Below are positions 9,244 to 54,600 of a DNA stretch of 64,000 nt, one piece after another; the first letter of the stretch is position 1, and each line of letters starts with the position of its first letter. Both the position numbers and the translations under genes were made by a program. The stretch is from Deuterostichococcus epilithicus. Taxonomy: Eukaryota > Chlorophyta > Trebouxiophyceae > Prasiolales > Stichococcaceae. The notes under the pieces were generated by a model that did not search any database, was not told the origin of the DNA, and saw only the letters and a list, made by a program, of their open reading frames with translations. Location: positions 732,501 through 796,500 of the forward strand of contig JAVTLE010000005.1 in assembly GCA_033439295.1 (NCBI GenBank), in the 5' to 3' direction.

Positions 9244-12200
9244 ATGACGCTGGCAGAGGCAGCGGTGGTGCTGGGCTCGCTGCTGGGCCTGGGCGTCGCT
9301 GGCTGGCTGTTCCTGGACCACAGCCTGTACCGGGACCATGAGGACAAGGATCCCATTGTCCAGGTGAGGAGCCCTTGCTGATGGTATGACCTGCTACAAA
9401 GTGCATGGGTCGCTTTGCGGAGGCGAGGTCGGCAAAGGGGCCTTCGAACAGCAGGTACTGTTTATAGGGCTCACGACACCAACTGTTCTGCTGCAGGGGC
9501 TATTTGCGTCAGTGTTCGCGCTGTCGGTCAACCTGCTGCAGCTCATCTTGTTCGAGATCCTGGATGTCCTGTCCGTCAGGTGCGCCCCACCTGCGTACAC
9601 CTCGAGCGCATTCCTCATGCTTGATCGCAACCTGACTCCACAGCTGTATCGTGGCGCTGAATTGTGAGAGGCACACGTGGGCCCGGCACCGCCTGATGCT
9701 GGCGACCTGGGCTGTACAGGGCGCGGTGGCTCAACTGGCGGGCGAATGTGCTGGTGATGCTGGTGCTGCTGCTGGTGGCGCTGCCGTACTACCACTGCTA
9801 CCGCACCCTCGCCAGCACACGTGAGTCTGAGTGTCAAGCTACAGTCTTCGTCCATTTGTAGAGCTCAGTGGCGTCAGCATTTGAGCTGTTACCCAAAGCT
9901 GACTCTGTGCCTGCATCAAGTTGTGCATAGAGGGCAGTAGGCACTGGAAGTTTGCGGCACCCATCCGGATAGGAGGTGCACACCACCTTTCAGGGAAGAT
10001 TCAGCACATGCGGGCGGCGGCGGGCGCGGCGCTGTTTCTGGGCGCGTTCATGTATGGCTTCTGGCGCATCGGCATCTACTGGCCGGGCGTCCCGCCGCCC
10101 GACCACGGCTTCTTCCGCCTCAAACAGGTGCGTGCAGGCTGCTTGCTAGTTTCAGAGGCGTCTGCCAAATTGCCGCTGCTGCATGAATTGGCTGGCCGTG
10201 GTCCTGACAGCCATTCGCCTGTCATAACCGAGCCACAATCAAGGCTCTCCAAGTGCGACCTCCTCTGCACATTCGCGAACTTCAGGCAAGCTTCCCCTGC
10301 CGCTGCCTGCCCATTCACCCGTTTCGCACCTGTTAATGCACGAACGGGCGATCAGCATGGTAGGCGTGATATGGGCGTGACGCTGATTCCCTTTGACTGC
10401 AAGCTAGTCCCCTGCCGCCGCTTACACTCTGCGGACCCTTGCCCCGTGCGCTGCAGGCAATCAGCAGGGTGGGCGTGATGGGCGTGACGCTAATCGCGGT
10501 GCTGTCCGGCTACGGCGCCGTCAACATGCCGTACTCCTACATCTCCCTGTTCATCCGGCCGGTGGACAAGGCAGAGATTGCCGCCATGGAGGCGCAACTG
10601 CTGCAGGTGGGACGACTGAGCCTGCGGCTCGGCTGGTCACTGTGTGTTTGCTTGTGCAAAGGCAATCAGAGTACGAGAGGATGCTGTGCTGGTTGGGTTT
10701 TAAAAAGGTGATGGACCGAGAGAGGCCACCACATTCTGGAGATGCCGAGCTCGATCACGTGTTTTCATCCTTCCAAAACCACCGCCGTCCAAGCGAGCTA
10801 AAGCTGGAAGCGTGCCGACCCCCTCCGCCCGCCGCCGGCAGGTGATGGAGACGGCGGTGTCCCGCAAGAAGCGCATGATCCTGGCGGCGAGGGAGCTGGA
10901 GGCGCAGCGCGCCGGCGGCCCCGCCTCCAGCCGCGGCTTCCTGCGGACGCTGGTGTCCTCCGTGACGCGGCCGGCGCGGCGCTCGCCCGCCGACACCATC
11001 GCCGCCCTGCGCAGCGAGGTGCGGTTTCCACGCCTCGGTGCAGGCCGCCTGGATGTCCCATGTGCGCGGAAGGGCAGCAGTCAAAACCCTGCCATCACGT
11101 GCAGAAGCTGAGATGCCGGCAGGGAGCAGGGGCTGCGCGCCTGCTGCCTGCGCTCTGTGCAAATGCCACAGGCACATGCGCAGATGGGAAGAGTCGGCCA
11201 AGGTCTCGATCGCATCCACTGTCCGTCAGAGGGTAGTGGTTGAAGAGCTGCTGGCTCTCCCTGTCCCGACGCAGAATCATGTTGTGGCAGAACAAGGATC
11301 ATTCAGAAGCGTGTCTTTCAAGAGTTGAATCGCCTTGACCCTGGGCTGCGTCAAAGCAGCGTGGCCAGGCACTGACTCAGTCCGATGCACAGGCACCGCC
11401 GGTGGAGGCGCTTGCGCGCGCACGCTGTGCGTGTCGTTTTCCGCTCGTCGGACCTGCTTCTGATGACAGAAATGTATGGCTGAGTGGATGAGCAGGTGAC
11501 GTCGTTGGAGGCGCTCAGGGCGGACGCTGTTCGTAGAGGTGCTGATATGGTTGCGCGCAAAAATCAAGTTGTCCTTTTGCGAAACTACACAAGACCTCCC
11601 TCTCCCACACAGGTGACGTCATTAGAAGCGCTGGGGCGGGCGCTGTTCCTGGAGGTGCTGGAGCTGCGCAAGGAGCGGGAGCGGGCACTAGAGTCCCGCA
11701 CTCTGACAGGCCATGCCAAGAACCTCATGGGCTACCTGCTGTCCGCCTACTGCCTCTACAAGTGCGCGCCTGCGCCTGCCGCGGCATGTGGGCCGGCTCT
11801 CAAGGGCTCTGCATGTGCAAGGCTTTGGGGACGTGCAGCGGCGGCGCGATTCTCGATGCCCTCCCCACGCCATGCCCTGTCCAAGTGCAAATCGCCTGCA
11901 CCATGCCAGGTCGACAGTCTGGGTCACAAGGCCGGTTGCCTCAATCTGCTTGCAGGATGTACGCATGCGTGCGGGCGCTCATCTTCGGGGAGGACTTCAC
12001 GTCGGACCCGGTGAGCAAGGCGCTGGGGATGGCGCTGCGCTACTTCTCTGGCGGCGCCATCGCGCTCAACGTCCCCCTGCTGTCCCAGGTGCACCTCCGC
12101 GTTCCATCTTCATCTTGACACAGCATACCTAGAGGTTCGCTCTTTCGAATGAATATGAGTAAGCTTTTGAGCCTCTGGGGTGGGCCTGGAGGGAGAGGGG

Positions 12201-15200
12201 TGGGAGGTTTTGGGGCTGGGCGGGCTGGCCAGTAGCGAGCGAGAGGTTCAGCGGATCCGGTTCTCTATGCACTCTGCACCTAGCGAGACGAAAACCACAA
12301 ACAAATGCCGATCAAAGTAGAAAGAGGCCGCCCAGACGCTGGTGCGATGCATTGGCATGGTCGACATATTGCATCGGGGTCTTCCCTATTAGCATGTCTA
12401 CCTCGACAACCATTTTATTGCGCCACTCATGTCCTAGCCAGTGCTCCCGCTGGCCGGCCCCGCCGACAAGGGCAGCGCCGCCTCAGTCGCTCAGGCAGCC
12501 GACGTTGATGTATGCGTCCGACATCGTGATGAGGTCGCAGCCGCCCCAGCTGGGCTGCAGCGCCGCGCACCACTTTGGCGCCTCCACAGGCGGCGCCGTC
12601 CCGCAGCCGGCTACCGCCGCCGTGCCGAGCGCCGGCCGACCAGGCTGCGGCGGCCCTCTCGCGGCGCCAGCCACTGGTACGCGCTGCTGTGTGCAGCAGG
12701 GCCGCGTGTTCTCTTTGCCATTGGTCGTGACGCTGAGCACTGCGGCGGCCATGTCAGCCTGGCAGACCCGTTGCAGGCCGCCGCACGCCAACGCTGCTGT
12801 GCCAGCCATATGCGCGGAACCGGCTGCCTGTGCAGGCTGCCTGACAGCATGCTGCCGCTCGGGGTCAGACCACCGCGGCTCTGCGGCCGCGGTGGCGCTG
12901 CCCAAGCCGCCGCCGCCGGCAGCTGTGGCTCCCGTGCTGGCCTCAGCACCGGATTGGTGTGCCATTCCTGCCGCCATGCCGCTTGACACCGGGGCTGATG
13001 TCGACAAGTCTGGCAACGCTGCCGTCAGGGGCTGGTGCAGCGGCCACGGCTGCTGCCTGCCCGGATTTGCCGCCGGCTGCGCTTCGGCAGGCGGCCGATC
13101 AAGCCGCTTATGTGGCATGTTGGTGGCGGAGCGAGCTGCGCTGGCAGAAAAGGCCGCTTGTTCCGCCATGTTGCGCCGCTTATGCCACCGCTCGCCTGCC
13201 GAGTCAGGCTGCTGTGCTGCTCGTGCGCAAGTCTCTGCAGCGGCCATGCTTCCGTCTTTTGGCGCCCCGCCCGTGCCTGTGCTGGCGTCAGCCACTGCTG
13301 CTCCGAGCACTGCTGCTGCTGCTGCCGAAATTTCCGCCGCATGTGCACCGAGAGCTGATGCGGCTGGGGCGCCGCCTGCCGATGGCGCCGGGGTTGTAGC
13401 ACCTGCGCCGCCTGCCTGCTGCGCTGTATGCGGTCCCGCCGCCGCTGCCTCCGCGACTGGTTCCGCTGCCGCCGCCGCCGCGCCGGCAGCCACACGCGCC
13501 GCCGTGAAGCGCGCCTCGACCGCTGGCAGTTGGCACTGGTCGGCCCACTGGCCGACAGCGTTCCGCAAGACGCGCCCCATGCCGCCACAGATGGGCTGCA
13601 CCGTCTTTGGCCGCAGGGCCTCCACCGCAGCCGCCAACTCGCCTTGTGAGCTGTGCATAGAAAACAGCACGTACCACACGCCATTTTCCTGCGCAAAACA
13701 GTAACTCGAAACATATCAGGTCTTGGTCCCCATGGTGACACACCAGCCAACAACTCCAAACTGTACTTGCACATATTATATGAGCTTGCTGACAGCCCCA
13801 CCGTAAGAAACAAAAAGAAATACATCCTTTCCAGGTCTGGAAGGGCACCTCGAAGGGCTTTGTTGGCGTGCGGAGGCAGGCGGTGTGGCTGGCCTCGCCA
13901 GACTTGTCGAGCTGCTCCACCGCCGTCATTACCCACATTTGCGTGCTGGGCTGCACAAACAGCGGCGGCGGCTCGCCGCGCTGCCTGGCAGCGGCCGAAT
14001 GCCTTGCCACGGCGTCTTGCAGCACCTTGCTCCCGCAGATGTGGAACCTGCAGTAAGACTTGGTTCAATATACAGATCTGACATCCGTCACTTGATAAAA
14101 CAAGCAGATCGCAAGCACATCGACAGCTGGAGGAGTCTGCTGCAAGGACAAGCTGCGATGGCTTGCCTGGTGGAAGTTGCATCCTCAGTCCGAAGTCCCG
14201 GCAGCAGCAGATCCAGCTCCTTGACCCGTTCTGCCTGGAAGATGCAAACAACACCTTGCATCAAGACCCCTAGGTTCCTGCGATGCGCTGAAGCCGTCTT
14301 GCTGATGTCGTGACAGCAAAAACGCGACTTCATGGCAGACAGCCGGGAGTCCAGGGCCTGCTTGCCCAATGCCAGCTTGCTGGCCCGCACCTGCATGCCT
14401 GGTCCCGACCAGGCGAAGGAGGTGCGCGGGTCTGCCGACAGGAAGAAGCGCGCCCCGTTTAACGCCTCGCTCACGCGCTGCAGCACGCGCTCGCAGCCCA
14501 GCATGTCTGCCGAGATGTAGACGCGGGAGCGGGGCGGCGTCCGCCGGATCAGGGTCCCCACCTGCTCCAGCGCCTTGAGGCGCGCTGGAAAGTCCTGCAG
14601 TGGCAGTGCCGAACAGCTGACTCGCCAGTCCTGTCGTATGGCCAACAGAGGGCAGCCGGGGGCCCAAAAGTCGAGCTGGTACTTGGCGCTGCCTGCCCTC
14701 CAGCCAGGGAACCGCCTGTCCACGAGTTCGTCAGCGACCGCCCGCAGCGCGGATAGCGCGGACAAGGATCAGCAGGCAAGGATGCCGTCGGCTGTGGCGT
14801 GTGACTCGACACGCTCTTTCCGGGCTGGGGGCTCACCAGCGGCGCCTCTCCAAAGGTGCAGTCCAGGTACAGCATGTCCAGCTGGGGCAGCGGTGGCACC
14901 AGCGCCAGATACCGCTCGTCAAGGCGTGCGTCTCCGGTGTGCAGCACCGTGCCAAAGTCGCCCTGCCAGTCATCGCCGTTGTATCAGTGGCGTATACCTC
15001 ACAATATAGCAAGGGCCCTGTCACGCGAGACAGGAGCAGGACAAGGTGTGAACTCTGCTCTCTTACTGAGTTCGGCTCATGGGAGGCTGTGGCTTTCTCA
15101 CCTCGAACAGCAGCATGGCTGCGCCTTGGCAATGCTGCGCGGGAATGGCCCTGACGGTGAATCTGACACCGTCTGCCGCTATGACCTGTGCGCACGTCAT

Positions 15201-16773: not shown

Positions 16774-17871
16774 CCTGGGGACTGCGTCATGCCTTCCTGA
16801 GGGAAGCCCACTGGCGCGCTGTGCATTCCCTGCGGGCCCGCCGCAACCGTCAAAGCAGCGCGGCAGCAAATATTACTTTCTCCTTTCAGCAGGCCTCGCT
16901 GAAACACTGTTCCGGCGCTGGGATTGACAGTAAGTGTGCAGTTCTGCAAGTGGTTTGGGGCGTTTATGGGTGAGGTCTGACCTCGGGTGCATGTCAACTC
17001 GTGCACAGGCTGTGCACACGAGCGATTCAAGCACCCAGGTAAAGCTGGCAGGGTCGTGCCTTCCTCCCTCAATGTTACAGACCGCAGGGGACTTGAACAG
17101 CCACCTAAAGGGTGAACAGCCACCGACAGCAGAACTGCCCCACGCACACAGCGAGTGAACGAATGCAGAGCAGGCAGTGGGCAAGCGCTGATCAAGTCCA
17201 TGCCAAGCTAGGCGACCACGATGCACAGATGCAGGTCTGAGAGCAACGCTGATTGGGCCATACAGCAAGAGCCAGTGAGAGCACGAGAATAAAGCAAGAT
17301 ATTCGTTGGCCACTATTCCACAACATGTGTTGTGAACGCCGTGTCGCATGCCAAGGCCCAGAATGCGGAGGTGCTTTTACTGCAGCAACCAATGCTCGTG
17401 GTTCCTGCTGCCAGAGGCTTCACGCCACCAGAGGCCTCTTTCGCCGTATAGCGGCACCGTGCAACCACAGGCGCAGGATCTATCCTGCTGAGCAACACGG
17501 CAGCAGGGGATCCTGGCGCCTCGCTGCCTCCGGTTGGCGCCCTCAGTTGCGAGTTTGCGGCATTGGAAAGCAGAAGCAGAACTTCTGGCGCGTGTCGTCG
17601 TATGCACTGTCCTCGTCGTCTGACACACCCGGCGTCGCCTGCAAGTGGAATGGCATTGTTCCCAGGGTTGGGGGTAGGACACAGCAGTCGTTGACGGCAT
17701 ATGAACCTGCATGATGCAGCGTTATGGCGGGTGTTCTGCAGAGTAATTTGCAGAGTATGAACAACAGGGCAGGCACATTGAAGGACTCCCGTGGCAAGCC
17801 GCACCGTGCGCAAGGTGCTCGTTGCACCGCAGGGACCGCATCCATCAGAGGTGGGCAGGCGGAACCAAGCC
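16774..17871. other. Convergent intergenic region
   Basis: These 1.1 kb lie between the stop codons of GPHR (+) and the START-like gene (-). They presumably hold both 3' UTRs. I found only short open frames without splice or homology support, and a minor imperfect duplication of GTGAACAGCCACC around 17095-17130. Confidence 0.6.
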
Positions 17872-20800: not shown

Positions 20801-21081
20801 GCACTGTACTTCGGTGCGTGCGTGTGCGCTGGGCCACGCAGCACAAGCTACGCCATGCCTTGGATTTAAAGCCATGCTGTATCTTGTGCATTAACACTGC
20901 GCAGCGGCTGCGCCGTGGTGCCGTGCCGCACCTGCACATCGCCGTCGCGCCAGCCGCCCTCAATCTCCAGGGCGCCCAGGTTCTGCGTCTTCGCCACCAG
21001 TGCCCGAAATGCCGCCGAATCGCGCTCCACCAGGAAGGTGTGCGCGTCAATCGGCAGCACTGCACTCACCTTGAAGTGCAT
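17872..21081 (-). CDS. START/SRPBCC-like domain protein with disordered tail
   Basis: Nine exons: 21081-20932, 20731-20555, 20382-20213, 20017-19918, 19678-19316, 19117-18969, 18808-18675, 18553-18418, 18157-17872; 554 codons plus stop. Residues 1 to ~200 read as a START/SRPBCC-type (Bet v1-like) fold. A strand-rich opening (HFKVSAVLPIDAHTF, DSAAFRALV) leads to LVTKPDMDRFVPKRL, then LTIEDLGDGSCRQTLEGDV, and closes with the amphipathic helix IICSSLRDVYSGIPEIVER. Such domains bind lipids or other hydrophobic ligands; actinobacterial DUF2505 proteins look similar, but I cannot name the family. The rest is Gln/Ala/Gly-rich with one acidic patch (EPDDIPDDID) and a basic one (DKRKWWRRHSRGR). The end of exon 6 was chosen by phase; a small extra exon there is possible. 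Ambiguous bases near 19195-19203 fall in intron 5. Confidence 0.7.
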
Positions 21082-31021: not shown

Positions 31022-34000
31022 TCAGCTGTTCAGCATTTCGACATTCACCTTGACCTTCTTCAGCAGCTCCTTGGCGGCGGGGTCGGTGTCGAAGTGCTCC
31101 CGGACCGGCTTCAGGATGGCGTTGATGGCCACTGTCAGCGCCGGCTTGAGATCGCCTGCGGGCGCAGGTGCAGGCTTAGATGACATGGAAACCGCCGCGC
31201 AGGCGTCTGCCAAGCAGCATCGAAGATCCACAGATCCACCAGCTGGCCGCTGCAGTGAAGGCCACTTGTCGGGCAGCCAGCATTGGCGACCGCGTCACAA
31301 GGGGGTCGCTTCCTAGCCAGTTGCCGCGGTGCGCGGGGCGTCAGCACAGCAGGACCGCAGCACTCACCTGGATGCAATGCGCCCGACGCGTAGTCTGCTG
31401 CCAGCTCTGCATAGGCGGCGTAGGCCCTGCACCACAGCAGCGCTAAAGCTGTGGCCGTGAAGGCTGACGTTCGACAGCTGCACACCGCCTGACCCATTAC
31501 ATACCAGCTGCATGCCGGGCCCGTCGCCATGTCTGGGTGCCTTTTAAATGTTAAAGGCACATGATGCAAGCGAGACCTGTCAGGGACACAGCTGCAGGCA
31601 GAGCAAGCGACTGCAGGGTGCACAGAGGGCTGCCGATGTGCACATAGCAGGGGGTGGCCGGGCGGTCGCACTTCTCGCCGCCGGCCTCGGGCTTGCGCGA
31701 CACCGCCAGCCGCCCAAACCAGGGAAAAACCACCAGCTTGGCGTACGCGAGGCACGGGTTGCCCTCCACCTGCCAGAACCACGGGCGAGCTCAGCGTCGA
31801 GCGTCGAGGGCAGCGAACACAGGCCGCGCTTCCTCAAGAAAGGTGGCGCGGGACCCGTCCGCGGCATGGCGCGGTGGACGTGAAGCTGGCGGCTCCTGAA
31901 CCCTGCACCCTGCAGCGGGGCGCCTGCCTGCCAGATCGGGTGCTTGTTCGGGTGGGCACCGTTGGACGGGACTCGTGCCGCGGGCGGGGCCCGCACCTGG
32001 CCGGGCGGGCAGAAGGCTTTCTTGATCTTGGTCTTGACATCTGTCTCACTGTCCTCCATGAAGATGGCCGACGCCGGGTCGCTCTTCGACATCTTCTCCT
32101 GCCCCTGCAGCGGCAGAAACCACGGGCCCTGCTCACGGGTGGCTGCCGTGGGCGCCCAGGGACTCTCGCAACGCCGGGTCGCTCCTCGACATCCCTCCTC
32201 CTGGCCCGGCAGCGGTGGAAGCCCACGCTGTTGCTAGCAGGGGCTGCAGGTGGCTGCTGTGGGCGCCTGGGGACTCTTTTGATGCCGGTTCGCACTTTGG
32301 CGGTTTCTGTCGATCCTGCAGCATCGCGTTCAGCCCACGTGTTGCTGACATGCTGCTGTCATGCCGCCGACGTATCGCTGTTGGGCAGTAGAGGCAAATA
32401 ACCGCGGCATTGGCCGGGACTTGCCCCAGCCTCAGCAACACACAACAGCTGTGCACAGGAGCGCGCTCTGGCACAGCAGGAAGCAGCTCGCGAGCTTGCC
32501 GGCGCCACGCGGGCGGCAGACTGTGTGTCGTGCGGGTTGACATCCTGAACCCTGTTGCTTGGAGACGCCCTAGCAGGCGGCAAAGCCCAAGACCCAAAAA
32601 TTCTACCTGCAGCAGGCCGGGCATCATGGGGTGCGACAGGATGACGGGCTTGAGCTTGCGCTTGGGCTGGCACACGTCGCAGTACTCCCGCGCCAGCATG
32701 TTCACCTTCCGCTGGTCCATGCCCAGCTGGCAGATGTCCGCCTGCACACACAGCTTGCCGCAGCAGATGAGACCAAAGTGCTGCCGTTGCGGTTGACACT
32801 TCGCGTCACCCCTGCGGGATACTGTGTTTGGACAGCAAGCCAATTTGCAGGACTGCGTTGGTGCCTGCTGCGCGCCTCCCGAAACTATGACATCGTTATG
32901 CCGACCGTGGAGCAAGCCGCCTGTTGTGCGGGCATCGCCGCCAGGGCCGCACCTTGAGGAAGAAGATGTCGGCACATTGCATGCACGGGTAGAAGATCTG
33001 GGCGGCCGACATGTCGTCGCTCTCGGAGCGCCCCATGATCTGGCCGCAGCGCACGATGCGCTTCAGGTTGTTGCGCCGCGCCACGTCCATCACCAGCGGC
33101 CAGTACTCCGCCGCCCGCCTGGGGTCCAGGAATTTTCAGGGATTTTGACGCCCATGGGACATCTAACACGGTCCTGCACCGACAGTGAACCCCCAGCCCA
33201 AACGAAGGCTCTGAGAACACCCTGCATGTACGCCCGCTCATGAGGAGGCGGCGCGCTCACGAATTGATCTCCTCGGAGGCGCTGATGAACTGCACGCGCT
33301 CCATGTCCATGCCGACCGCCCTCCAGATCTCTACCATGTACCGGCCCACCACCTGGATCTTCTTCAGGTCGCCGCCCATCTTGTTGTTCAGCTGCGCAAA
33401 GTAGTCCGCCACCCTGCACAAGGCTTGACAGGCTTATCCAGTCCAGATGAGTCCTGTAGGGCAGTCGCCGCGGTTTGCATCACATGCTGCCCTGCACAAG
33501 CCGTGACAGGCTCATCTAGATGGGTCATGTAAGACAGTTGCGCGCAGTTTGCATTACATCGCAGGGTGTCACTGGGGAGTGAGCGTGTCAGCTCGCCGCT
33601 GCAGCTGCCTCCGATGCATGTGGGCAGACCAGCTGTGGACGCACCAGAACTTGAACGTCACGCCGCATCGCGTCAGCTTGTTCACGTTGAGCGCCTTGAG
33701 CACTCCCTGCATGATCAAGACTTGCGTGATATGGTGGCAACCGACGCCGTCCACTGCCGACCATGAAATGTCCGACGTCGTTTGGCAGCACACCACGCCC
33801 TGAGCCAACACGCACCTGTGCGATGTGCATGCGGCCCGATGGCTCGAAGCCGTCGTACGCGACGATGCTTGGCTTCTTGTCCAGCAGGTTTCTGAGCTCA
33901 TCCTCTTGTATGCACTCCTCCGCTATGCTCCTACAAAGCTTGAACTTGTCGTCCAGCGTCAGCCTGCGGGCATGCATGGCGGCTCGTCAAAATGTAGCCG

Positions 34001-39671: not shown

Positions 39672-42600
39672 GTGCTTCCCCGCCACTCCCCTTCGCTGCT
39701 TACCTCTGCGGCGCAGACCAACCTCTCAAGATGTCCAGCTGCGCACTGAAGTTTCAGCGCGACTGACATTCGACAGCACACGCACCAGACACTGTTCTGC
39801 TGTGGCGGGAAACATGCCTGTCTGGCGTTCGAACATCGTCACAGTGCGCGCCAACGACAGTCGCGTCTCGTGCCGTGCAGCCCTGGCGGAGCGCAGGGGT
39901 GTGGAGCTGCAGGACCTCATCCTGGGCATGCCCAAGCTGCTGGAGTGGCTTGGCCGCATGTTCATCACGCGCGACGCGCTGCTAGGTGCGCACCTGGGGG
40001 CGTCCAGTTCAGCGCAGCAACCATGCAGCCACCTCCTGCACCATAGCCCGCTCTGCCCGCGGATCTGCATGGCCATCGGCCATCGCCTCGGGATGTCCAA
40101 GCTGAATTTCCCCTGGTACTCGGGAATGTGCTCCGCAGATGAGCTGGCGGACGTCTTGGGCATGGGGCAGCAGCAGCTGGCGCGCGAGGTTCTGCCGGCC
40201 GCCATCCCCGCCCTCATCGCCGCCCAGGTGACAATTGCTCGCACAGGAGCTCGCCCACATCTGCCGGCGTGTTTACGCCAGTTCGAGTGTGGGGCTACAC
40301 CACTGCTGGCGGAACGCGGTGCATCTGAATCAGGAGGTGGTGCACTCATGGAGCATGCTGAGAGTGCTGAGAGCGGCACAAGGCGCATGCAGCACCCACC
40401 TGCATGTTTCGAACCTCTTCTCCGAATTGTTTTGTACCACAACAGGACCGGCCGGCGCTGGAGGCGCTGGCGCAGTGCGCGGGCATGAGCCTGCAGCACC
40501 TCATCCACGAGCTGGGCCACCACGCCGTTGCCAAGCACATCTTCGAGGGTGCGCGCCCGCCGCTGGCAAACCTTCATCCTCGCACGAAGCCATGACCAGC
40601 GCTGTGGTCTGCACTGTGCGCGGTGCAGCGTGCGATTTACATGTGCTGCTTGAGTTGCAAGCAGTTTCAAGCGTTGCTCAACACAAAGTCATTGGAACTT
40701 CAAAGCTGACATGGTTCATGGGCGTTGCGTCTGCAGGGTCCCAGGAGTTCGGCTCCTTCATGGAATTTGTGGAGTCGGTGATAGGCGAGGGGTTTGTTGC
40801 GTACCTACGCGGCATCATGCAGCGCGTCATCACCGAGATCATCGCCATCGCCAGCGACTCGCCCGACTGGGGCGGCGGCCCCACCCTTCCGCAGGCGAGC
40901 TCACGCCTCAGAGCGTATCTGCTGTACTTCATGAATGCAATCAATGCACTTCTGGATTGCCTAATGCTTATGGCACACCGCCAAGCAGGGGAGGTTTGGC
41001 AGCTCGGAAGCCTGCACGAAGACACACAAACATCCTGTGCATTGTCGACATATATATGCATTGCCGACACAAGCACATGTCACGACTTGCTGGTGCTTCG
41101 ATTCGGCCGCAGTCCGTCTTCGACCGCGCACGCAACATGCTGCACATGCTGGCGCATGATGTGGACGGCGACCAGCGGCAGGACGTGGCCGACCTGCTTG
41201 CAGGTGTGGCATCCCACGGGATGCCTGATGGTTGCTATCCAGTTGAAGATCAACCATGCACAACCATACTCGCTGGATCACATCACCATGTGACAACACC
41301 ATGCAGACCCCATGCTGGCGATGCCAAAGTCGAGGCCTCTGCGGGGTGAAGCAATGCACACGCACACCGCTGCCATTTTCTGTGTTGAAAGACGGGACGC
41401 AGGCGCGCCCATAGCAGCGTGCGCGTGTTCGAGTGATGCGCCCTCCTCGCCCGCCCTGCAGACTGCGACCACGTGACCAAGATCCTGAAGCTGTATGGCG
41501 ACGAGCTGGACCGCGGCGGCAGCGCCGCCTGCACGTCCGAGCTGGCGGCGCACCGACAGATCCTGCGCGGCGTCACGCTGCTCATCGGCCTCACCGGCCG
41601 CCACATCGACCGCTTCCTGCCGCAGGTGCGGCCTGGTCCTTGCTGGGGGTCGTGCCAGGCATCCTGTGCCACCGAGTGTTGTCTGATCTGCATGCGCGTC
41701 TCACCAGCGCAGCAAGCGTCAGGCCTGCCCCGAGAGCGAGCTGGCTTCTGTTGTGGCGTCTGGACGTTCACGCAGTCGCAGGTCAGCTGCACAAACAGAG
41801 CAAGCCTACACGCAGCATGTGCTGCTGGCAAGATGGTCAGCTCAATTGTGGCGCCTTCTGATTTGCCGCCTGTCTGCCTGCAGATGATGGTGCTGCTGAC
41901 GGGCGCAGTGCGCGCATCGAAGCCGGCGCAATTGCAGCTGCAGGCGCTGGAGGGATGGCTCATGCTGGTGCAGGCGCTGCTGCGGCACGCGCCTGCACAG
42001 CTGTCTGGCGTCATGCACCAGGTCTGTCACAGTTTGATATGCCATTTGCGCCCTTCACCGTCGGGCAACCATGCTGCCGGCAGCTTAGCGAGATTTCGAC
42101 TGACATCTGAGCTGATTTCGGACCTGAAATCACGTATCAGCCTCCAATCGGCTAGATGGGGCGGTGGAGGTCTGCGGACCTGGAGATGCTGCAGGCTTTT
42201 GATGTGGGTGCCTCATGCAATCTCGCTAGATGATCGTGACGCTGCTGGAGCCGCTGCACGAGGGCGGCGCCGTGGCGGCCGCGGCTGCCAAGGTCGTGGA
42301 GGAGATCGTCATCAACGGCGCCAAACTCTTCAAGGTATGTTCGCAAATGGCTGTCCTGGCATGTCAGGCGCTAGGCAGGCAGGAAATCGGACTGGGTAAC
42401 GCATTGCACTGTGATGAGTGCTTGCTGACTGTCAGGCGGAGATGCAGTGTGCATTCAGACCGTCCCTGTTGGCGCACTACCTCTGCAAGCAGCAGCCACG
42501 ACACATGGCCCGCCATGTTTGCGACAGGACAAGCTGAAGCAGCTGCCGCCCCTGCCGGCCTCGGTGCCCGCGCTCGCGGCGGCGGGCGAGGCGCTTGCGG

Positions 42601-45600
42601 CGGCGCGCGGCCAGCTGTATGCAAAGGAGACGGTTGTGCTGCTGCGCGACTCGCTCGGCAGCGAGTCCCTGGGCGTGCGCGCCGCAGCACTGCAGGTGCC
42701 CCACCCCTGCAGCTCTGTCGGCCATCTTCTCGCGGCAGTCGCCTCTGCGCAGGATGTTGTAGTCCCCTCTTCTGAGCTTGCCCTTTGCTACCTGCTGCTG
42801 CACCAGACCCACCCCAGGAAACGAGTACCGCTGCATCATCCGTCGGCTGTCCCCCATCGTGGCAGCGGACGGCCCTCCCTCATAGCCGACCCGCTGTGGG
42901 AAGCAGGCTCTCCAAGTCATGCTCACAGTCACTCAAAGCCGTTGCCGTCCGCCCCTGACCGCAGGAGCTGCAGACCTACCTGCAGCAGAAGCGCAGCTGG
43001 CTGCAGGGTGTGCTGGCGGACAGCGCCGGCGGCAGCCCCGAGGGCGAGGCCGCAGAGAGCGAAGAGGCTGCGCTGCTGGCCAGCCTCATGGCCGCGCTGC
43101 TCAAGTGCTGCGATCCCGAGGTAAGTCACAGGCGCCTGCCTTGACCGCGTCAAATGGACGTGCGTTCGGATCGCTGCTCGGCCTGCTGCCGAGACGGCTG
43201 CCGTGGCGCCCAGGTGCAGCCTGCCGCGTGCGAGGGGTCGTGCCTGGGGCGCGTCCGACTTTTGTGCCCGCGGCGGGAACGGCAAAGTTGGGACCCACCT
43301 GCACAGCGAGCCAGGCAGGCGGGAACACTCAAATTTCCTGCTGTGGAGGCCACCTCTGTCTGCCTGCCGCTCCCAGGCGGGGCTGCCTGTGAGCCGCGCG
43401 GCGCAGCAGTGCGCGGCGACGTGCCTGGGCCTGCTGGGCGCTGTGGACCCCGCGCGCCTGGGCCTGGCGCCGCCGCCGCCGGGGGGCGCCGCAGCCGCGG
43501 CGGACCTGCCGCTGCTGGTGGCCCTGGTGGAGCGGCACCTGGTGCGCGTGCTGCGGGTGGCGTCACACCTGTTCCAGCTGGACGCCGCCACCTTCGCCAT
43601 CCAGGTCGGTTCCTGGAGGGAGGAGCTCCTCCCTCCTTGTTCCCTCAAACCGTCCCCAAGCCTTGCCCAGTTCGTGTTGCAATCGCTTTAATTGTGAGTG
43701 AGGACCCTGGTAAGGCGCCCACCTGGCGTGCACGCGTTGGGTCGCGACCCTCCCCCTCCAGCTGGACATCGCCCCTTCGCGATGCACCTGGCCGCTAGTG
43801 CTTCACCATACATGCCGACCGTTCCGTACGAGATTCCTGGACTGCCCGCTTTGGTTCTCGAACCCGTTTTGGGTTCGCATGATGCATCCTGCTGGCCCTC
43901 AGTGTTGCTGGAGGATGTTCCACCCCCTGGACCGTTGTTCCAAATGGGCGCAGACCACCATGACGATCTGGGCGAACAAAAGGCTTACTCATGACTGCCT
44001 GCTACTGAGAAGCAACAGTCCCCCTGTCGGTCCGTTTCAGTAACCGATGGAATGTAGATGGGCAGTCGTGACGAAACCGGACATCAACGACTGCGAGGCT
44101 GGCACTGATCGTCACTTAGCGCACTTCAGGGACCAGCAGCACGCTGCGCACACGGGCTCTGAAATTGGATGCCCGTGTGCGTAGTTGTGCTGTGTCCCTC
44201 ACCCGCGCCAAAACTAACCTGCAACCCAGCCAAACATGACGACTACAATTTCGGAGCACAGGACTAGCTTGCATGCCCCCTGCCAGCATATCCCCTGAAC
44301 GCGCAGCCTGAGGCTCAGACAGACAGTGGAGACCGGCTGCAGCCTTAGATGGATTACCGGAGACAATGCGCATCCAGGCAGTGGCTCTGTGCGCAGGAGC
44401 TGCTGCGGCACTACAGCAGCGCCGGGCTGCCGGCGGTGCCCGCGGCAGACATTTCGGGCAGCGGAGCCGGCCGCAGCGTGACGCCAAAGGAGGGTAACTC
44501 GCTGTTTGCAGCGCTGGCGCTCGAAACCCAGGTGGGTGCTGAACAGAAGCACAGCTTGCACGTACGCCCACTGCATCGTACTGATCACAGTTGCACCAAC
44601 TTGCACCAAACATCGACACTCGACACTGGGCACATGTATCAGACTCGTCAATGAACGCCAGGATGCAGGCGATGCACAATCTTTGACGACCGATTGACTT
44701 GGCCCTCCCTCGTGCGCCTGCAGGCCATTGTGCGGCCATACCTGGACTCGAAGTTCGCGGTGCAGGGCGCGGGCCGCTGCCGCAAGGGCGTGATCTTTGG
44801 CGCCGCAGGCGCCGACCTGCCCTTCCGCAAGTGGCTGTTCCAGTGGCTCAAGCAGCTGGTCAGCCAGGCCGCAGGTCTGTGCTGCATCCGAGTGACCTTG
44901 ACTCGCAGTCGATGTTGGCCTGACGCTTATGGCCCGTCATTGCATGGGCGGTGTTGTGCACGGAGGATGCGCCAGTGCTGCTGCCCGTCAGGCTCGAGGC
45001 TCAGCTGAGCATGGTCGCTCATGACAGCTCCTTCGAGTTGGTCGCTTGGCAAGACTGAGCCGAGCTGCACAATTTAGATGCAATCGAAGCACCAACCGAA
45101 GTTGATACACCAGCTGCACAACTTGATGCAGTTGCTGAGTGGTGCTTCTCTCAAGTTCGAAGCGCTTGGGACAGGCAACGACCAGATATCTGCGCAGGCT
45201 CGCGGCTGAGGATGTTCCAGGCGTGCATCCCCATCTTCCGGGTGGACATCCAGGTGTCGCAGTACCTGCTGCCGTACCTGGTGCAGAACGTGGTCGCCCA
45301 CGGCTCCGACGAGGCGCGGCGGGGCGTGCAGAGCGAGGTGCGCACGCCCGCGGGCAGCCGCTGAGCCGCGTCGGGTGTTGCAGGGCCCAGGAACAGAGTC
45401 CCTGGTAGCGGCAGATCTGCGCGAGGTGTCAGTATCGGAGGGTGACAGCGTGCTTCGTGCCCATGCCATGATGCAGCAAGCTCTCAGGTGTTTGCTCCGA
45501 AACAGCCAACAGCTGCTCAATTCAAGCGTTTCAAGTATAAGGCCATCGCTGATGGGTGGCCTGCGCCGGTCGCGCCTGTGCAGATGGAGGCGGTGCTGCG

Positions 45601-48600
45601 CGGCGGGCAGAGCAGCCGCGAGGGGGAGTTGTGCGTGCAGGGCGTGTTCGGGCTGCTGGACACGCTGGCCAAGTGGCGCGCCGAGCAGCGCGTGTCCTCC
45701 TCCAGCGGCTCAGGTGGGCACTGCTGGGTCCATTAATGAAGAGTGGCTTATCGAGCATCGAGCGTTGAGCAGCGAGCATCGACCCATCTTGACCAGGCCG
45801 AGTGGCCCAGCAGTTCCACTGTTGTTTTGCACAACTGAAACCCTACCCGCACATGCAGCTGGCACAGGACTGCTGTGTTGTGGCATGTCTGCAACCTACC
45901 TGCCCAGCACAATGGGCGTGATGGTCCAGGTGAGGACCCTTCTCAAGCCGTCACGATCCGCAAGGCGTCGGGTTGCCCAACAACAGACAGCTCTTTCCCA
46001 AACCGTCAATTTTGCCGCCAGGGTCCACGACGTCAGGCACGACGACGGGCGCCGCCGCAGCCACCGCCCGCTCGGCAGCGCAGGACCCGGCCGCCAAGCA
46101 CCTGGGCGACCTGCTGGACGGCATCCCCCAGGAGCTGCTGGCCAGCGCCGCCGCGCACTGCGGTGCGTTCCCTGCCATACTTCTTGTTTGTCATTTGAAG
46201 GCTGGCCATCACACACCTTTGCACGGCATTCCCCAGGAGCTGCGGGTCAGCGTCGCCGCGCCTGCAGTGCCCTTGCTTGCAGATGGCTGACATCCATGCT
46301 GCAACTCGCCTCCTGTAGCCACTCGAAACCGCGAGTGGAGGAGGCGACTCCCGCCAGGCTCGCTGCAGCCCGTGGGCGCACGGACAGCCTGCAGGGTCTT
46401 GTCAAACCCTCCCCCAGTGCCGGCTTGCATGTTCCTGTCAGCCCTCGAAGCCAGTGCCCTTGAAGCCAGTGTGCCTCAGGGTGCTGTTGCCATCACGACA
46501 GGCGCGCACGCGCGGGCGCTGCAGCACTACGAGAACCATGTGCGGGCGCTGCACGGCGGAGGCCTCAACGTGGCCGGCCTGCGCAACGTGCAGTACGCCG
46601 ACTCCGAGGTCGTCTTTCTCCAGGTGAGGGTTCCCCTTGCATCTTGATCTCTCGACACTTGTGCTGCAATGCCATTCGTGTGTAGAGCGCTATTCAGCAG
46701 CACGCATGTCATCATTTGCAAGGCGAACCACTCCACTCACTCTCACTCCGGACAGGGACCAGGAGAGTGACACGGCAGCGGGGCTGGAGGCGCTGTGGCC
46801 CGACGACTCTACTGCCAGTCCGCTATGCTCTTGTTCATTACTCATTCAGCGATGCATGATACTATTGATATGTCACAGCCTCCATTTCCAACAACCGCTG
46901 CAGGAGGTGTACGGCAAGCTCGAGGAGCCGGACGGGCTGGCGGGCTTGGTGCGGCTGCGGCGCGGCGGCGCGACGCCCGCCGACCACATGCTGGCCGCGG
47001 AGAAGGCCGGCGCCTGGTCCGAGGCCCTGTCCTTGCACGAGCAGGTGGGGCTGCTTCCGCGAGACGCGGTTTGAAATAGTAAAGGCTGCTGCAAACAGTG
47101 TGTGTGTCTGTCATTGCGATGCAAGAGCATGCTGACCAGCACCTGGCCGGCTGCTGGCGCAAGGGCTCTGCGCGCATGGGTACCGCGGGCCGCCCGCCAC
47201 TGCCCGCTGCCGCTCCTCGGAAGTCGTGCATGGAATCAGCGCGTGCCAGAAGCTGTCGGCCCTGGTGCTCGGCAGGCGCTGCAGCACAACGCGGCGCACG
47301 CAGCGGCGCCGGCGGCGGGCGCCGCCGGTATGGGCGCGGAGCAGGGCCTGAGCGCCGGGCAGCGCGGCTACCTGCGCTGCCTGCAGCACATGGGCCATCT
47401 GCACAGCCAGCTGACCCACGTCAACGGCTGGGCGCTCGGCGCCTCCGGTGTGCATGATCATACGGGGTGCATTGCTTCCTCTGTACCGCAGCCTCCTTGC
47501 CGCCATGCCGCGGCTCGCCTGCAATGCAGCCCAGGGCAGTTTGGCTCCCTCCAAACGCGGGTTTGATGATCGTGCTCCTTCCTTGCAGATGCGGCCAAGT
47601 GCCAGCTGGCGGCGTCGGGCGTCGCGGCGGCGTGGCGCCTGGGCCAGTGGGACGCGCTGTCGGAGCACCTGCCGCGCACCGTGGCCGGCTACGAGCGCCT
47701 GGATGCAGAGGACCGCTGGGAGGTGCCGGCAAAACCCTACCTCGGCAAACCCCTACCTTCCGCCGGGACCCCGGAGGCACCCCTGACACAACTTCATGTC
47801 GTGCATGTACTGGCATGTTCTCGCACCAGACTCTGGGCACGTGCTGTCGCTGCAAGTGGAGACGTCATCTGTCATCGAATGGCCTGGCCGTCTTCAACAC
47901 GCCATGCTCGATCGCTCGAACTCCATCCGGGCAGATCCTTGCGGAGGCCCTGTCTTGCCTGCCGGACTTGCCATCGCCATGCCGCTCGAGTACTTTGGGG
48001 CGACATGGGCGAAGAAGAATCTCGCAGGCCAGGCAGGGAAGGCTGCAGAGGGGTGCAGTGTCTGCTGCACAGACGCTGTGACCTCGCTTGCATCACCAAC
48101 ACGACCCGATTCGAAGCTGGCGGTTGGGTGCCGAGCCCGGAACCTGGCGCTCCCCAGGTGCGCGTCGGGCGGCTGCTGGCGGGCGTGGCGGGGCGCGACG
48201 CCACCGCCGTGGCGGTGCAGCTGCGGGCGGCACGCGCCGAGATCATGGCGCCGCTGTCCGCCGCCAGCATGGAGTCCTACGCCCGCGCCTACCCCCACCT
48301 CGTGCGCCTGCACATGCTGCAGGAGCTGTCCGATGCGGCCGCGCTGCTGCAGGTGCGCGCCATCAGGATCCAGAGCTAGGCAATTTCCACGCGTCCTACC
48401 CTTCATGCGTGGCTGCAGTGTCGCTGCTGGTGGCTGCCCTGATGTCCCATGACTCTCTCCACTCCCGAGGTGCCCCATCATGCGACATGTGAAGCCGTCG
48501 TGACAGCACTCTGCAGGAGGAAATGACACAGACCCAGTTCTGCCGCCTCGTGAACGGCCCTGCAGGAGACGCCAAACGCGGGGCCGCACGACAGGGACCG

Positions 48601-51600
48601 CGCGCTGCACTGGGGCCCGCGGCTGGCGGTGACGCAGGCGGGCCTGNGGGCGCGGGGCCCCATCCTGGCGCAGCGCCGCCAGCTGGCGGGCCTGGCCGGC
48701 GNGCCGGCCGACGCTGGCGCCGCGTGGCTGCAGCACGCCAAGCTGTGCCGCGCCGCGGGTGGGCCTTGCGCTTCGGAAAGGAGCAATAATGACGACTCAC
48801 GGACTTCCTGTCCGCAAGTGTCGGCTCTGTGTGTCTGGCGCAGTATAGACTTCTGCGCAGAGTGCAAGCACAGCCTTGTGCGCATGCTGCCGTGATCGGC
48901 TCTCACTCACATTGCTGCCTTGCGCCCCTACCAAATCATTGTGTGTGCCACAATGAGTTGGTGAGGTCTGGTATGCAAGGGCTTCCAGGCTGCCACCGCA
49001 TGCCAAGTCGGCCGTCTCGAATTGCCATGCGGTCGCAGCGAGGAGGGCTTGCATACCGTACCAACGTCGCATCTCCGCAGAGCCTCGAGCACCTGCCAGT
49101 GGCTCACCTGGCGACTCGAGAGCCGCCAGCTTTGCAGGGCACTTCGAGGCGGCCAACACGGCGTCGCTGGAGGCGGTGGCGCAGAGCGTGCCGGGCGCCC
49201 CCGTGGAGCACGCCAAGCTGCTGTGGGCCATGGCCAAGCCGCACCGCGCCATCATCGAGATGCAGGAGGTGCGCGCCCCGAGGGAACATCTGCCAGTGCG
49301 GATGGAGCAGCCAGGGCGTGCAGGGTTGCACGCATGCAGGGTTGCACGCAGTGCTGTATGCAGGGCTGCAGGGAGGCAGAGGGTTGCTCTGCGCCCGCCT
49401 CCGGGACACCACCGGGAGTTGCTCCTCTGCTACTGGGCCTGCTGTCCTTGGATCGGTGTGGTTAGTGTAGCAGACACAGCTGTGCTGCGGAGCCCCGTGA
49501 TGCTGCACTGCGGTGCGAAACGCTGCCGAGGTCACGCCGCACCAACACTGCGCGCAGGCGATCGGACAGCACGAGGCGGTGAGCGGGGGGCGCGGCCCCG
49601 GCGCAGACTTCCTGGGCTTTGAGACGCTGCATGCGCGGCGGCGCAATGAGGCCAAGGCCCGCATGCTGCTGGCCTGCTGGATGGCGGAGACGGGGCAGGG
49701 CTACCGCGGCGACATCGACCGTGTGTTGTTCCCACCGAAAGTCTGTAACAAGCTCCTTGTTGAAGGCTGTCCTCTGCAGCGCTGCTCGAAGGTGGAGGCA
49801 GGGCAGGGCCTTGCCGCCGACATCGACAATGTGCCAGCTTGTGCATGCTGGCTTCACTGAGCAGTTCTGTGCAGAGTAGGCTTTTGCAAAGCCTGCTTCG
49901 TAGAAGGAAGACTGCTTGCTGCTGCGTTGATGCAAAGTCTGGGCATGGGCGCCTGGGGCTGCACTCCGTCTGCACCAGCTCGGCAGCCCTGCAGATGAAA
50001 CGTGTGCAGCGCTTTGCGTGTACTTTCACGGATGAGTCGGGAATGAGGCGCTGGTTTTCAGCTTGCCTCGTATCTCGCCCGCAGTCAACTTCAAACGATC
50101 CATTGACCTGGCGGGTGACTGGGAGAAACCGCACTTCCGCTACGCCAAGTTTCTGGACCAGCTCATGTTGGACGCGCGGCAGCGCCAGGCCACCACCAAG
50201 GTCGGTTGGCCTTCCAAGCGCTCCAGGGGGATGATGTGTTATGGACATCCACCCAGCTTGATTAGGCATCCTGCGATCGCCAACAGCTCGCACCGCCAAT
50301 CAGACTTTTGCGTGTACAGTCGAGTTGTCTGTGTTTCAGATGGCAGTCAGCAGCTCAGATGGCAGTCGGCAGCTCAGATAGCGGCCAGCACAAGCCTCTC
50401 CAACCGGCAAGACCCTGCCCTCTTGTAATGTGTCATTGTGTACTGTATGTCGCGGTGCGCAGGCCATGGCAAAGGACCTGGACCGCATTGGCGGGAAATC
50501 CAAGATCCCGCTGGGCCAGGACAAGCCATACCTCGACTGGCTGCCCGAGGTCGGCCTCCCTATGCATGTGCCTCGTCGATGCAGATGTGCCCAAAGATAC
50601 TTGCAGCTGAAACATGGCGCCATGGCTACTAACGGCGCAGAGTGATGCAACTGAGTCTGTGCTTGAAGCTCGGCAGTGCAGCCCTGTTGCAACCAGCAGC
50701 CAGCAATGCAGCTCCAGGTTGAAAGCACTGAACCATGCGAATTCTAATTCCTGATCGTTCATTTCCGCACAGGTGCTGAAGCATTACGCGCAGTCCATCA
50801 GGCTGGGGTATCGCCACATCTACAAGAGCCTGCCGCGGCTGCTGACGCTGTGGTACGACTTCGGGACGCTGGACGCAAAGGCCTGCGACAAGAAGGTGCA
50901 CTGGGTTGAGGATGCCTTACTGCACCATCCGGGTCCCCAGTTTTGACCCGCAACTCCGGCGCTGTGCTGCGATCAGCTCGTTCCAGGACTGCCATGGCTG
51001 CCCATTCGTTGCAGTCATACCTGTGTGCGAGCAGCGGGTGCCAAAGGTTCGTTTCGGAGGTGACATGGCAGTGCTCGGCACTGCCAGTACGACCACAGCG
51101 AGCTGGCGCTGGCGCCACAGCACTAGACCCAGCGGAACGAGGCCAGAGCCTTTGTGATCGCCCTGATCGGATCTTGCCTTGCACGCTCAGGTGGTGACCG
51201 AGGTGCACAGGACGATGTCGGCACTGGCCAAGGCACTTCCGATGTATGTCTGGCTCGTCGCGCTGCCGCAACTGTGCTCCCGGCTGACGCACCCGCACCC
51301 CGAGGTCGCCGCCCTGACGCGCAACATCATCACTCGCGTCTTCATTGCGTACCCGCAGCAGGTGTGTCCTGCCTCGGTCTACGGTTGCGTGGCGAGTGGA
51401 CATCCTGTAGCTTGACACCGTATTGGAGTGGAAGCATACGCTTGCACAAGTCGCAGCTTAGTTTTGGGCTGCCGACTCAAGCCTTGCTCCACAGCCGAGG
51501 CAGCGTGCCTGGGCAACTGCACTTGCCACACAACTCCTCAATCTGCGGCCTCCATAGACTTGCAGGTCCCGTGCTGATGGCCTGCTCTTGGCCCTGCCCA

Positions 51601-54600
51601 CCCTGCAGACGCTGTGGCAACTGGCGGCGATCCTCAAGTCCACAAAGGACCGGCGCCAGGCGGCGGCGGTGGAAGTGCTCAATGTTGCCAAGCGCAACAT
51701 TGGCGACGAGAAGGTGTGGGCAACATGCTGCGTGCAATCGACATCAACATTGACGTCTCAAATCCAACAAAGAACGATCACACCCGACACTGCCATCATG
51801 TTGTGCTGAATGCCATCAAGCGCAACATTGGTGACGGCAAGCTGTGATGTTCGAGCGAGAATGCGAACACCAATAAGCGCATGCCAACACATGAGACGCA
51901 CCCAGCAAGACTATGCTGGCCAGGGGGTCCGATTGCCTGGCGCAGACACGGCAACCCTGCCCGTGTCGCGCGCTTCCTGGCGCAACTGACTCTTATGCTG
52001 ACCATGTCTGCAGGCTCGGAAGCTGATCCGGGACTTTGCCGCGCTGTGCGACCAGCTCGTTAAGCTGTGCCACCACCAGCCCAAGGAACCCAGAGCAAGG
52101 TGCGAGCGCCAAGCTGTGACTCCTCGGCACCCGACATCTGAATGCTTTCGTGCAATTTTATAATAAGTCAAATTATACAACTCCACAGCTGCATTTCGCC
52201 CCTCACCAAGTGTGAACTTGAAGCGAGGAGTCAGGGAGCATCGTCCATGCCCGAGGCAGCGTCAATGCCAGCAAGGATGCTCATGTCGAAGACGTTTTTC
52301 CATGTTGTGCAGCCTCCCCATGCGCAGGGTCCTCAGGCGGAAATTTTGTATACTGCAGCATGCACCTCGAAATTACAGTCAGCCCTGAGGCAGCACAGCG
52401 GGTGTATGCATGCTATGAACAAGCTCAAGCGGACTCAAGCGACATGACAATGCGCTGCAGGACCTTTTCGGTGCGTACAGAGTTCACGACACTGTCGCGG
52501 ATGCTACCCCTAGGCATCATGGTCCCAATCCAGGTGAGGGAATCCGCCCCAAATGCTGGCAGCCATGCGTCATGCGACTGACACTGTTGGCTTCGACTCA
52601 TACCCTTGCCGGCATGTGCCCCGCTCGCAAACTGCCATCTTATGTGGAGGAAGCCCACAGCCGAAGCGCAGGCCGCGGCATCATGATCCAACACTGCAAA
52701 GCCATCGGTCGAGGCGCGAGCAGTACTTGCAGCGGCATCTAGCAGCAGCATCCCGTGTGGCAGTTGGTTTCTGGAGTGCAAGGGGGTCTTGCTGAGGCGT
52801 TGACGGAGTGGCCCCCGCAGGCGACGCTGACGCCGACGCTGCCGCCAGCCGCAGCGCCCGTGCCGGGCGCGGCGCACGAGCCGTTCAGCCATCTGGTGCA
52901 CATCGGCGCCATCTACGACACCGTCGAGGTTATCAACTCCCTGCAGAAGCCCAAAAAGGCGCGCGTTTGTCACATGAAAATGTCGTTTGTCCGAGCCTTG
53001 TGTCCTTGTCACATGAGGAAGCTTGCAGCTCCGCATAAGGGGACCGAGAGGGCCACCGGTACTTATCTTTGTGTTGTCAATGAGGCCGCATGCACGTTCC
53101 GCTGCCGCAGATCCAGTTTGTGGGGTCTGACGGCCACCGCTACCTGTTCCTGGCCAAGCCCAAGGACGACCTGCGCAAGGACGCGCGCATGATGGAGATG
53201 TTGGGCGTCCTCAACCGCTTGCTCGCCAAGCAGCCCGCCTCCCGCCGTCGCAACCTGTTCGTCCGCAGGTGTGCACGGGCATCATCAAGCACCAGATGAG
53301 ACTCGAGACAGCGGAGCAGGGGCCTTGCAGCCTGCCGCGCCCCATCCCTGCCGCTAAGTCGCTGCCGCTCTCGGGGTGCTGCCTCTCTGCAGACGCAGCT
53401 GTGACTGACTGCTCTCCCCCCAAAGCGTCGCATGCCAGCCTGCCTGCCGGCAGCCACAGAGGTTCAGGCATGCGGCGACAGACGCGGCACCGGGGCCGTC
53501 CCCGCCGCCGTGTGGCCTGTCGAAGAGCAGCCTGCCTCACCGCCACTCTCGTGGCCCTCGGTGCGCCTTGGCAGGTTTGCGGTGACGCCGCTGACGGAGG
53601 ACTGCGGCATCCTGGAGTGGGTGCCCAACGTGGCGCCGCTGCGCGATGCGGTAGAGCGGTGCTACCGCCAGGACAAGCTGTTCGACCGCTCCACCAACAC
53701 CACCATCAAGCTCATGTGGGACGCCTACCCAAAGGTCCGTCATCTTCAGATTCATGCTGTTGATGATTCGACCAACCAACCAAGGGTTTTGTTGTACTTT
53801 TGGGTGTACCCGGCTCTAATTCAGTAGGTGTTGAAGAATGTCATTTGCAGCCTCGGCCCCCCGCCCCACCGTGCGCCTGAGCTGTCTGATGGGGTGGCCG
53901 CGACGCTGGCTTTCGGCACTGTCCTCATTAGCACAGACGAGCAAAGGACAACAACTTCGCATCCAGGCACAGGATGCTGGCGCACTTTTACCAAACCGGC
54001 TGCAGTCGCGATTCTTGCTACTCTTATCAGGGAGTGAATAACCGCCTGAGACACCCAGTTCACTGAAACCTGTCCCTCAATCTCGCTGCCGCAGAAGGCG
54101 CGGCGGACAGAGCTGCTGGACAAGGTGCTGGCGATGCTGCCGCCGCGCATGCACCGATGGTTCCTGGAGCGCTGGGCGGAGCCCGCCGCGTGGCACGCCG
54201 CGCGCCTTGCCTTCATCCGCACCGCCGCCGTCATGTCCATGGTCGGCCATATCTGCGGCTTAGGCGACCGCCACGGTGAGTGCAAGGGGCCCCATGACCG
54301 AGCGTGTGGCGCGGCAGTCGGGGAAAGCTGCTGGTTGACAGCTTCCTGGAGCTGCGCGCAGCAGCCTGCGTTGTGGAGGCCGGCCCTGTTTCGTGTTTGG
54401 CGCTTTGGGCCTCGTCTGCTCAGATATGAAGGAAGGTTGTTCAGGATCGCTCTCGAGCACTCGCACTGCTGCCCGGATACCTGCCGCGGTCCTGCCTGAC
54501 GCCGAACCCTGACCGCCCGCCTCCCCCCGTACGCCGCAGGCGAGAACATCCTGCTGCACGACCAGACGGGGGAGGTGATGCACGTGGACTTCAGCTGCCT

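Follow-up and report, generated by a model that had tools for sequence, protein, structure and literature searches.

Tandem duplication within genes is an established route to introns, as described in two earlier papers (PMC3443670, PMC4974935). The duplications concerned are short, local and direct and sometimes carry splice sites; in the potato RdRp case a piece of intron was duplicated together with exon. Small tandem duplications also arise in mammalian cells, where CST-Pol alpha primase fills in 3' overhangs (PMC8355091). Introners are a further example of recurrent mutational shaping of introns. The growth of introns and the source of their sequence have mostly gone unobserved. Here we describe a window of 64,000 nucleotides from the chlorophyte Deuterostichococcus epilithicus (contig JAVTLE010000005.1, C5:732501-796500), in which introns of the GPHR, TyrRS and ATR genes contain degenerate copies of the exon edges next to them. 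A first-pass annotation of the window had ascribed these copies to one continuing process of tandem duplication, in units of 80-130 nt, that carries splice junctions into introns. As judged on computed gene models, the copies are direct, peak in offset, are anchored at splice junctions, take exon sequence as their source, are free of coding constraint and sit in long introns. We give roughly even odds (about 0.5) to the reading that they stem from a junction-anchored, exon-limited local copying process that is selectively neutral and lengthens introns.

The analysis covered 314 kb from three of the 21 contigs of the 46.8-Mb genome, namely the window, 200 kb of contig C1 (500001-700000) and 50 kb of contig C3 (500001-550000); "C1" or "C3" followed directly by a number gives a position counted from the start of the respective stretch. 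The GC content of the stretches read is 0.62-0.63, the telomere repeat is CCCTAAA, and in our judgement the structure of the genes resembles that in green algae. Gene models were computed from the sequence with a self-trained exon-intron model that made no use of RNA evidence. It predicted 65 genes with a coding length of at least 300 nt and 692 introns (median 222 nt), with the consensus splice sites CAG/GTGCG (donor) and TGCAG/G (acceptor).

Direct near-repeats were sought with an ungapped scan at offsets of 30-1000 nt and with gapped self-BLAST, which covers offsets of at least 60 nt, shorter ones being covered by the ungapped scan alone. The window held 14 ungapped pairs scoring at least 17, some of them of low complexity, compared with none at offsets of 30-1000 in three Markov-shuffled windows; in the latter no ungapped pair reached even 15 at offsets under 500. 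The pattern recurs on C1 and C3. Across the 314 kb, with low complexity filtered, successive 15-nt offset bins from 30 to 150 nt contained 4, 5, 8, 6, 18, 11, 19 and 4 ungapped pairs, and offsets of 150-200 contained 16 summed over three rows; these counts include overlapping pairs and within-protein repeats. The peak near 100 nt expected from the window is found at 80-140 nt in the wider sample. Gapped BLAST (at least 35 bits, offsets 80-140) returned 52 direct and no inverted pairs.

From 187 direct hits we kept 94 rows (at least 33 bits, offset up to 320). A predicted exon was present in at least one copy of 86 rows, in one copy of 56 and in both of 30, leaving eight rows with an exon in neither. 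Identity varied continuously from 98% to about 70%, as anticipated for copies of differing decay. For the 55 exon-edge rows with an offset of 60-160 and a spacer longer than 10 nt, the median offset was 117 nt (quartiles 99.5 and 131), the median block 52 nt and the median spacer 63 nt. With neighbours merged, 31 of the 65 genes held a total of 61 exon-edge loci (offset 60-210), which were not significantly clustered by gene beyond intron number (p = 0.24). Fifty pairs were classed as clean, one copy containing at least 20 nt of exon and the other lying wholly outside exons; 29 are of acceptor type (copy upstream) and 21 of donor type (copy downstream).

Anchoring was assessed with 50-nt exon-edge probes aligned to their own intron (introns of at least 120 nt, shorter ones lying outside the test; low-complexity probes dropped; score at least 30). 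Matches were obtained for 16 of 478 donor probes and 21 of 487 acceptor probes, or 37/965 in total. Length-matched introns of other genes gave 1/965, reversed sequence 0/965 and the reverse complement 1/965. Probes from exon interiors, at least 60 nt from an edge, matched in 2 of 476 cases, a control partly limited by the offset peak itself; the enrichment at junctions over exon interiors foreseen in the first-pass annotation is borne out. At a score of at least 34, matches were present in 31 introns, made up of 27 of the 167 probed introns of at least 300 nt (16%) and 4 of the 382 between 120 and 300 nt. Copy-bearing introns are long, in keeping with the earlier proposal that the copies lengthen them.

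The youngest pairs locate the source more closely. Twenty-three pairs had at least 85% identity at offsets of 70-160 after low-complexity filtering. Twenty-one were exon-edge pairs; the two intron-intron pairs came from a short-repeat array (C1 87750) and from a satellite of 153 nt (C1 152961). If pairs with an intronic copy were placed at random, 40% would be exon-edge pairs, well below the 21/23 observed (P = 4e-7), and the excess persists (P = 4e-4) when intron-intron pairs count at half weight because both of their copies decay. Young blocks ended 1-18 nt past a junction in 15 of 21 pairs (24% expected, P = 5e-6), measured to the nearest junction of either copy, a rule that favours small distances. 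Measured to the junction of the exon copy alone, which was partly assigned by hand, 17 of 21 ended 1-18 nt past it, three fell short, one was unassigned and none ran beyond 18 nt. By these counts, 21 exon-edge pairs versus 2 and 17 of 21 within 18 nt, young pairs preferentially draw on the exon as their source and have their block end at the border. Usually blocks end 1-14 nt beyond the junction. Young loci include those in eS19, the mitochondrial carrier and a lipase on contig C1 (near 535900, 578400 and 682800) and one on contig C3 near 509800. The 153-nt satellite, a direct repeat array, lies inside a predicted intron (near 652961-653560 in contig C1 coordinates).

Tandem duplication of a unit lying across an exon-intron border necessarily doubles some intron sequence as well. 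Of the 50 clean pairs, 43 are without long intron similarity, and in these 43 identity has reached background (0.26) by +7 at donors and by -13 at acceptors. We simulated decay at twice the exon-copy divergence for 36 clean pairs; the other 14 lay outside this test, seven having more than 25 nt of intron similarity, which fits tandem duplication, and seven ending more than 12 nt before the junction. Intron-intron similarity was present in 3 of the 36, compared with about 30 expected, and 28 pairs reject the tandem model at 0.05. Sixteen young pairs (11 clean pairs at 84% identity or more and five oriented by hand) gave the same picture, with similarity in two against an expectation of 15.9, 15.2 or 12.7 at 1, 1.5 or 2 times the divergence. 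Random tandem duplications of about 80-130 nt, purged where internal to exons and surviving at borders, with intron halves that decay twice as fast, predict junction-reaching blocks, neutral decay and longer introns, and they fit a minority of pairs. However, intron-half similarity is absent where simulated detection power is near 1, and young intron-intron pairs are too few. We regard this explanation as improbable overall and, for most of the young pairs tested, reject it as sufficient by itself. The grounds are the absent intron halves, and the earlier notion of a plain 80-130-nt tandem unit is likewise not supported, the intron half being unduplicated in most pairs tested.

A serious rival, although we judge it somewhat unlikely, is later homogenisation of old tandem duplications: full-unit duplications across borders in which gene conversion or unequal exchange with the exon later renewed the exon part of the intronic copy, whereas the intron halves drifted apart until no similarity could be recognised. 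It accounts for high identity in the exon part, unrelated intron parts and sharp ends where homology stops at the junction. Tandem or array cases do exist (C1 19393, 98650, 132397 and 197180; TyrRS 32071), copied acceptors are acceptor-like upstream, and mean mismatch clustering lies above permutations (0.79 vs 0.64, n = 57), yet individual pairs exceed their own permuted dispersion in only 56% of cases. Against it also stands the lack of young full-unit duplications among the 94 rows. Blocks cover at least 90% of the offset (70-160) in eight of them, and no young event is seen because seven of these are at 69-81% identity and the eighth (88%) is a satellite array.

The copies are without coding constraint. 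Mismatches in the clean pairs number 119/700, 109/701 and 168/696 by codon position; changed codons comprise 200 nonsynonymous, 98 synonymous and two stops, and 21 of the 50 pairs have gaps within the exon part. This modest excess at third positions is consistent with a neutral copy beside a slowly evolving exon. Splice sites aligned in the copies often retain GT or AG, but mean site scores are 1.7 in copies versus 5.1 in real donors (n = 12) and 0.7 versus 5.3 in acceptors (n = 19). The retained GT or AG, the acceptor-like sequence upstream of copied acceptors and the concentration in long introns could speak for functional copies, acting as alternative or mutually exclusive exons, poison exons or splicing decoys. 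So could the donor-like inner ends (p < 0.1) of 5 of 24 acceptor-type copies, where 2.4 are expected. Otherwise, inner-end sites are at about the level of random intron (17 donor-type and 24 acceptor-type copies, medians 0.43-0.49 in two narrower windows), and the copies are in general not complete exons with splice sites at both ends. With the codon-position pattern, the changed codons and the gaps, these absent inner sites disfavour functional exons or decoys, which we consider very improbable. A clear difference in branch points upstream of copied acceptors was not found.

Some copies were nevertheless predicted as coding. In eS19, solved relatives pass from the exon edge directly to the peptide of the next exon (the second piece is weak alone, 5.0 bits), and the peptide predicted as coding between them is therefore intronic; in a lipase, solved relatives are gapped where the copied peptide sits. 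We take several other exon-exon rows to be miscalled intronic copies likewise. On contig C3 near 537805-538123, several copies spaced 90, 180 and 270 nt apart are predicted as small exons with splice sites, and this array is possibly a true repeated exon. The suggestion that copies seed new introns was not confirmed: among the 94 rows the offset equals the predicted intron length only at C1 138656 (135 nt), which is ambiguous because its upstream 24-nt predicted exon may be spurious.

Templates and spacers were examined for other origins. Spliced RNA is an unlikely source because sequence of the next exon does not continue the copies (mean score 11.2 vs 11.6 in controls, n = 50), and an origin from mRNA or cDNA was rejected on this ground. 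Forty-three spacers searched against the 314 kb matched solely within their own locus; a mobile or introner family was rejected on this basis. Similarity to degenerate telomere repeats was seen in 5 of 71 spacers (each at p <= 0.005; 0.36 expected), three of which belong to pairs that are among the youngest (C1 131255, 35875 and 78382). Two spacers between an exon edge and its copy, in eS19 (contig C1 near 535900) and in the mitochondrial carrier (contig C1 near 578450), rank among the four strongest interstitial telomere-like stretches of the 314 kb. Intron-wide, telomere-like 8-mers occur at only about 2.5 times the level of permuted units on the C-strand and 1.8 times on the G-strand.

The telomere-like spacers could be explained by fill-in of staggered breaks with filler between the copies that is often telomeric, supplied by telomerase or as captured repeats; the mammalian fill-in reaction described above (PMC8355091) also speaks for it. 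Yet none of 11 independently picked interstitial telomere stretches was flanked by direct repeats above control, among the matches listed on C1, C3 and C4. The remaining spacers resemble ordinary intron sequence, and filler alone leaves junction anchoring unexplained. As a general rule telomeric filler was rejected, and we think it quite improbable as the principal route; because 5/71 spacers but 0/11 independent stretches show the association, such filler may take part in some events.

In the copying process that we favour, local DNA copying would recur at exon-intron borders. Each event would add to the intron a directly oriented copy of the exon edge, about 50 nt long and usually extended by 1-14 nt of intron that hold the donor or acceptor core. 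The offset would mostly be 80-150 nt, with about 63 nt of unrelated intron sequence lying between copy and original. We infer that each copy stems from a single event and that splicing uses the original site. Because that site would stay in use, the copy would be selectively neutral, decaying at all codon positions and lengthening the intron, and repeated events at one junction would build arrays. As the route we favour error-prone break repair, through fill-in or template switching, in which one end of the break lies at the exon border; the border might conjecturally be set by RNA-DNA hybrids confined to exons by bound splicing factors. That DNA in this lineage is recurrently cut or re-copied at these borders because transcription or splicing marks them, for instance through hybrids of this kind, so that splicing steers an intron-building duplication from exon edges that later decay, is a further step which we hold to be unlikely.

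Several points weigh against this junction-anchored copying. Fifteen of the 50 clean blocks end before the junction, and in seven of the 50 clean pairs the similarity continues for 28-99 nt within the intron, which shows that tandem duplication takes place as well. Block and spacer length are negatively correlated (-0.35), a better fit to tandem duplication of a fixed unit, although alignment truncation would give the same sign. The stretch from -15 to -6 upstream of copied acceptors scores 0.38 (n = 17), close to real acceptors (0.44) and above random intron (-0.34), partly owing to blocks that include this stretch; some copies may once have been working splice sites. The pairs are not all independent, as several loci contribute two each, and the gene models are self-trained without transcripts. 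We know of no mechanism that makes break ends coincide with splice sites. The offset peak, the position at junctions and the range of decay agree with the earlier idea of one continuing process, but the existence of a minority of pairs in which the full unit is duplicated in tandem makes a single process doubtful.

In the window, exon-edge copies exist at six of the eight offsets first reported (109, 117, 100, 105, 108 and 128 nt), all above chance. GPHR (plus strand; Pfam GPHR_N, PF12537) has two acceptor-side copies. The start of exon 10457-10606 (10456-10494) is copied at 10347-10387 (acceptor type, offset 109, 85% identity); unlike most pairs, this one retains some similarity between its intron parts. 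In gapped alignment, the start of exon 11613-11761 with its CAG (11610-11660) is copied at 11493-11544 (offset 117, 85%, one gap); we take two tiny exons predicted in or near this copy to be gene-finder errors. A copy at about 198 nt did not rise above background, the best candidate (11814 vs 12012) being 18 nt at 83% among several chance-level matches.

The TyrRS model (minus strand) aligns continuously to PDB 8zmi. The edge of its exon 31997-32104 (32071-32104) has a copy at offset 100 and a further pair at offset 111. Degenerate copies occupy 32171-32293 of the intron, where similarity also runs 78 nt through the intron, as in a tandem-type array. The reported offset of 78 nt in the same gene is a real duplication but not an exon-edge copy: in 33412-33559 (minus strand) intron sequence is tandemly duplicated almost in full (unit 78, 77%), and the pair (33412 vs 33490) touches 2 nt of exon.

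Three donor-side pairs lie in the ATR model (plus strand; PF23593 and PF00454, tested on its C-terminal part). The edge of exon 46022-46162 with 4 nt of donor (46115-46166) is copied at 46220-46270 (offset 105, 87%), without intron-intron similarity. The edge of exon 49558-49722 with 3 nt of donor (49666-49725) recurs at 49774-49833 (offset 108, 76%), where we take a partly overlapping predicted exon to be wrong. The edge of exon 51609-51713 with 5 nt of donor (51675-51718) has its intronic copy at 51803-51846 (offset 128, 80%). A further exon edge on the plus strand (43522-43603) has a weak copy at 43705-43786 (offset 183, 71%); inside the spacer of this pair lies a perfect 22-nt inverted self-match, a palindrome, at 43615-43636. 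The ATR model (42230-60910) extends into WD-repeat-like sequence and probably represents two neighbouring genes fused by the gene finder. Pfam also confirms the mitochondrial carrier, a Cid1-type poly(A) polymerase and PP2C among the gene models. A perfect 24-nt tandem duplication was observed at 8478-8525; together with pairs at offsets of 31-33 (35412 and 30983) it may form a separate class of short-offset tandem repeats.

A sizeable share of the longer introns probed, 27 of the 167 of at least 300 nt, contains copies of the adjoining exon edge, and since these range from nearly identical to barely recognisable they form a natural archive of how introns lengthen. Gene prediction is led astray by them as well, several having been called exons by the self-trained finder. 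If junction anchoring holds genome-wide, a DNA mutation process would be linked to the position of splice sites, which to our knowledge no model predicts.

Among the papers listed in searches of the open-licence literature, no title or displayed abstract describes exon-edge copies in existing introns at such a scale and without the intron half. Comparison with described systems places them as follows. In tandem exon duplication, including mutually exclusive exons, exon sequence is duplicated into the adjoining intron, as here, but the present copies comprise only about 20-90 nt of the edge and generally have neither a second splice site nor coding constraint. Introners share the recurrent shaping of introns, whereas the spacers tested here have no repeat family in common. 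The duplications made by CST-Pol alpha are direct, local, mostly short and derived from breaks with overhangs; they are immediately adjacent by the definition given there, while ours have about 63 nt between the copies and an anchor at the splice junction. Such fill-in is known to produce small tandem duplications but does not explain the anchoring. Intron gain by tandem duplication likewise proceeds through short, local, direct duplications in genes, sometimes with splice sites; there, however, the duplicated segment becomes a new intron, whereas here the copy lies inside an existing one, usually without the intron half.

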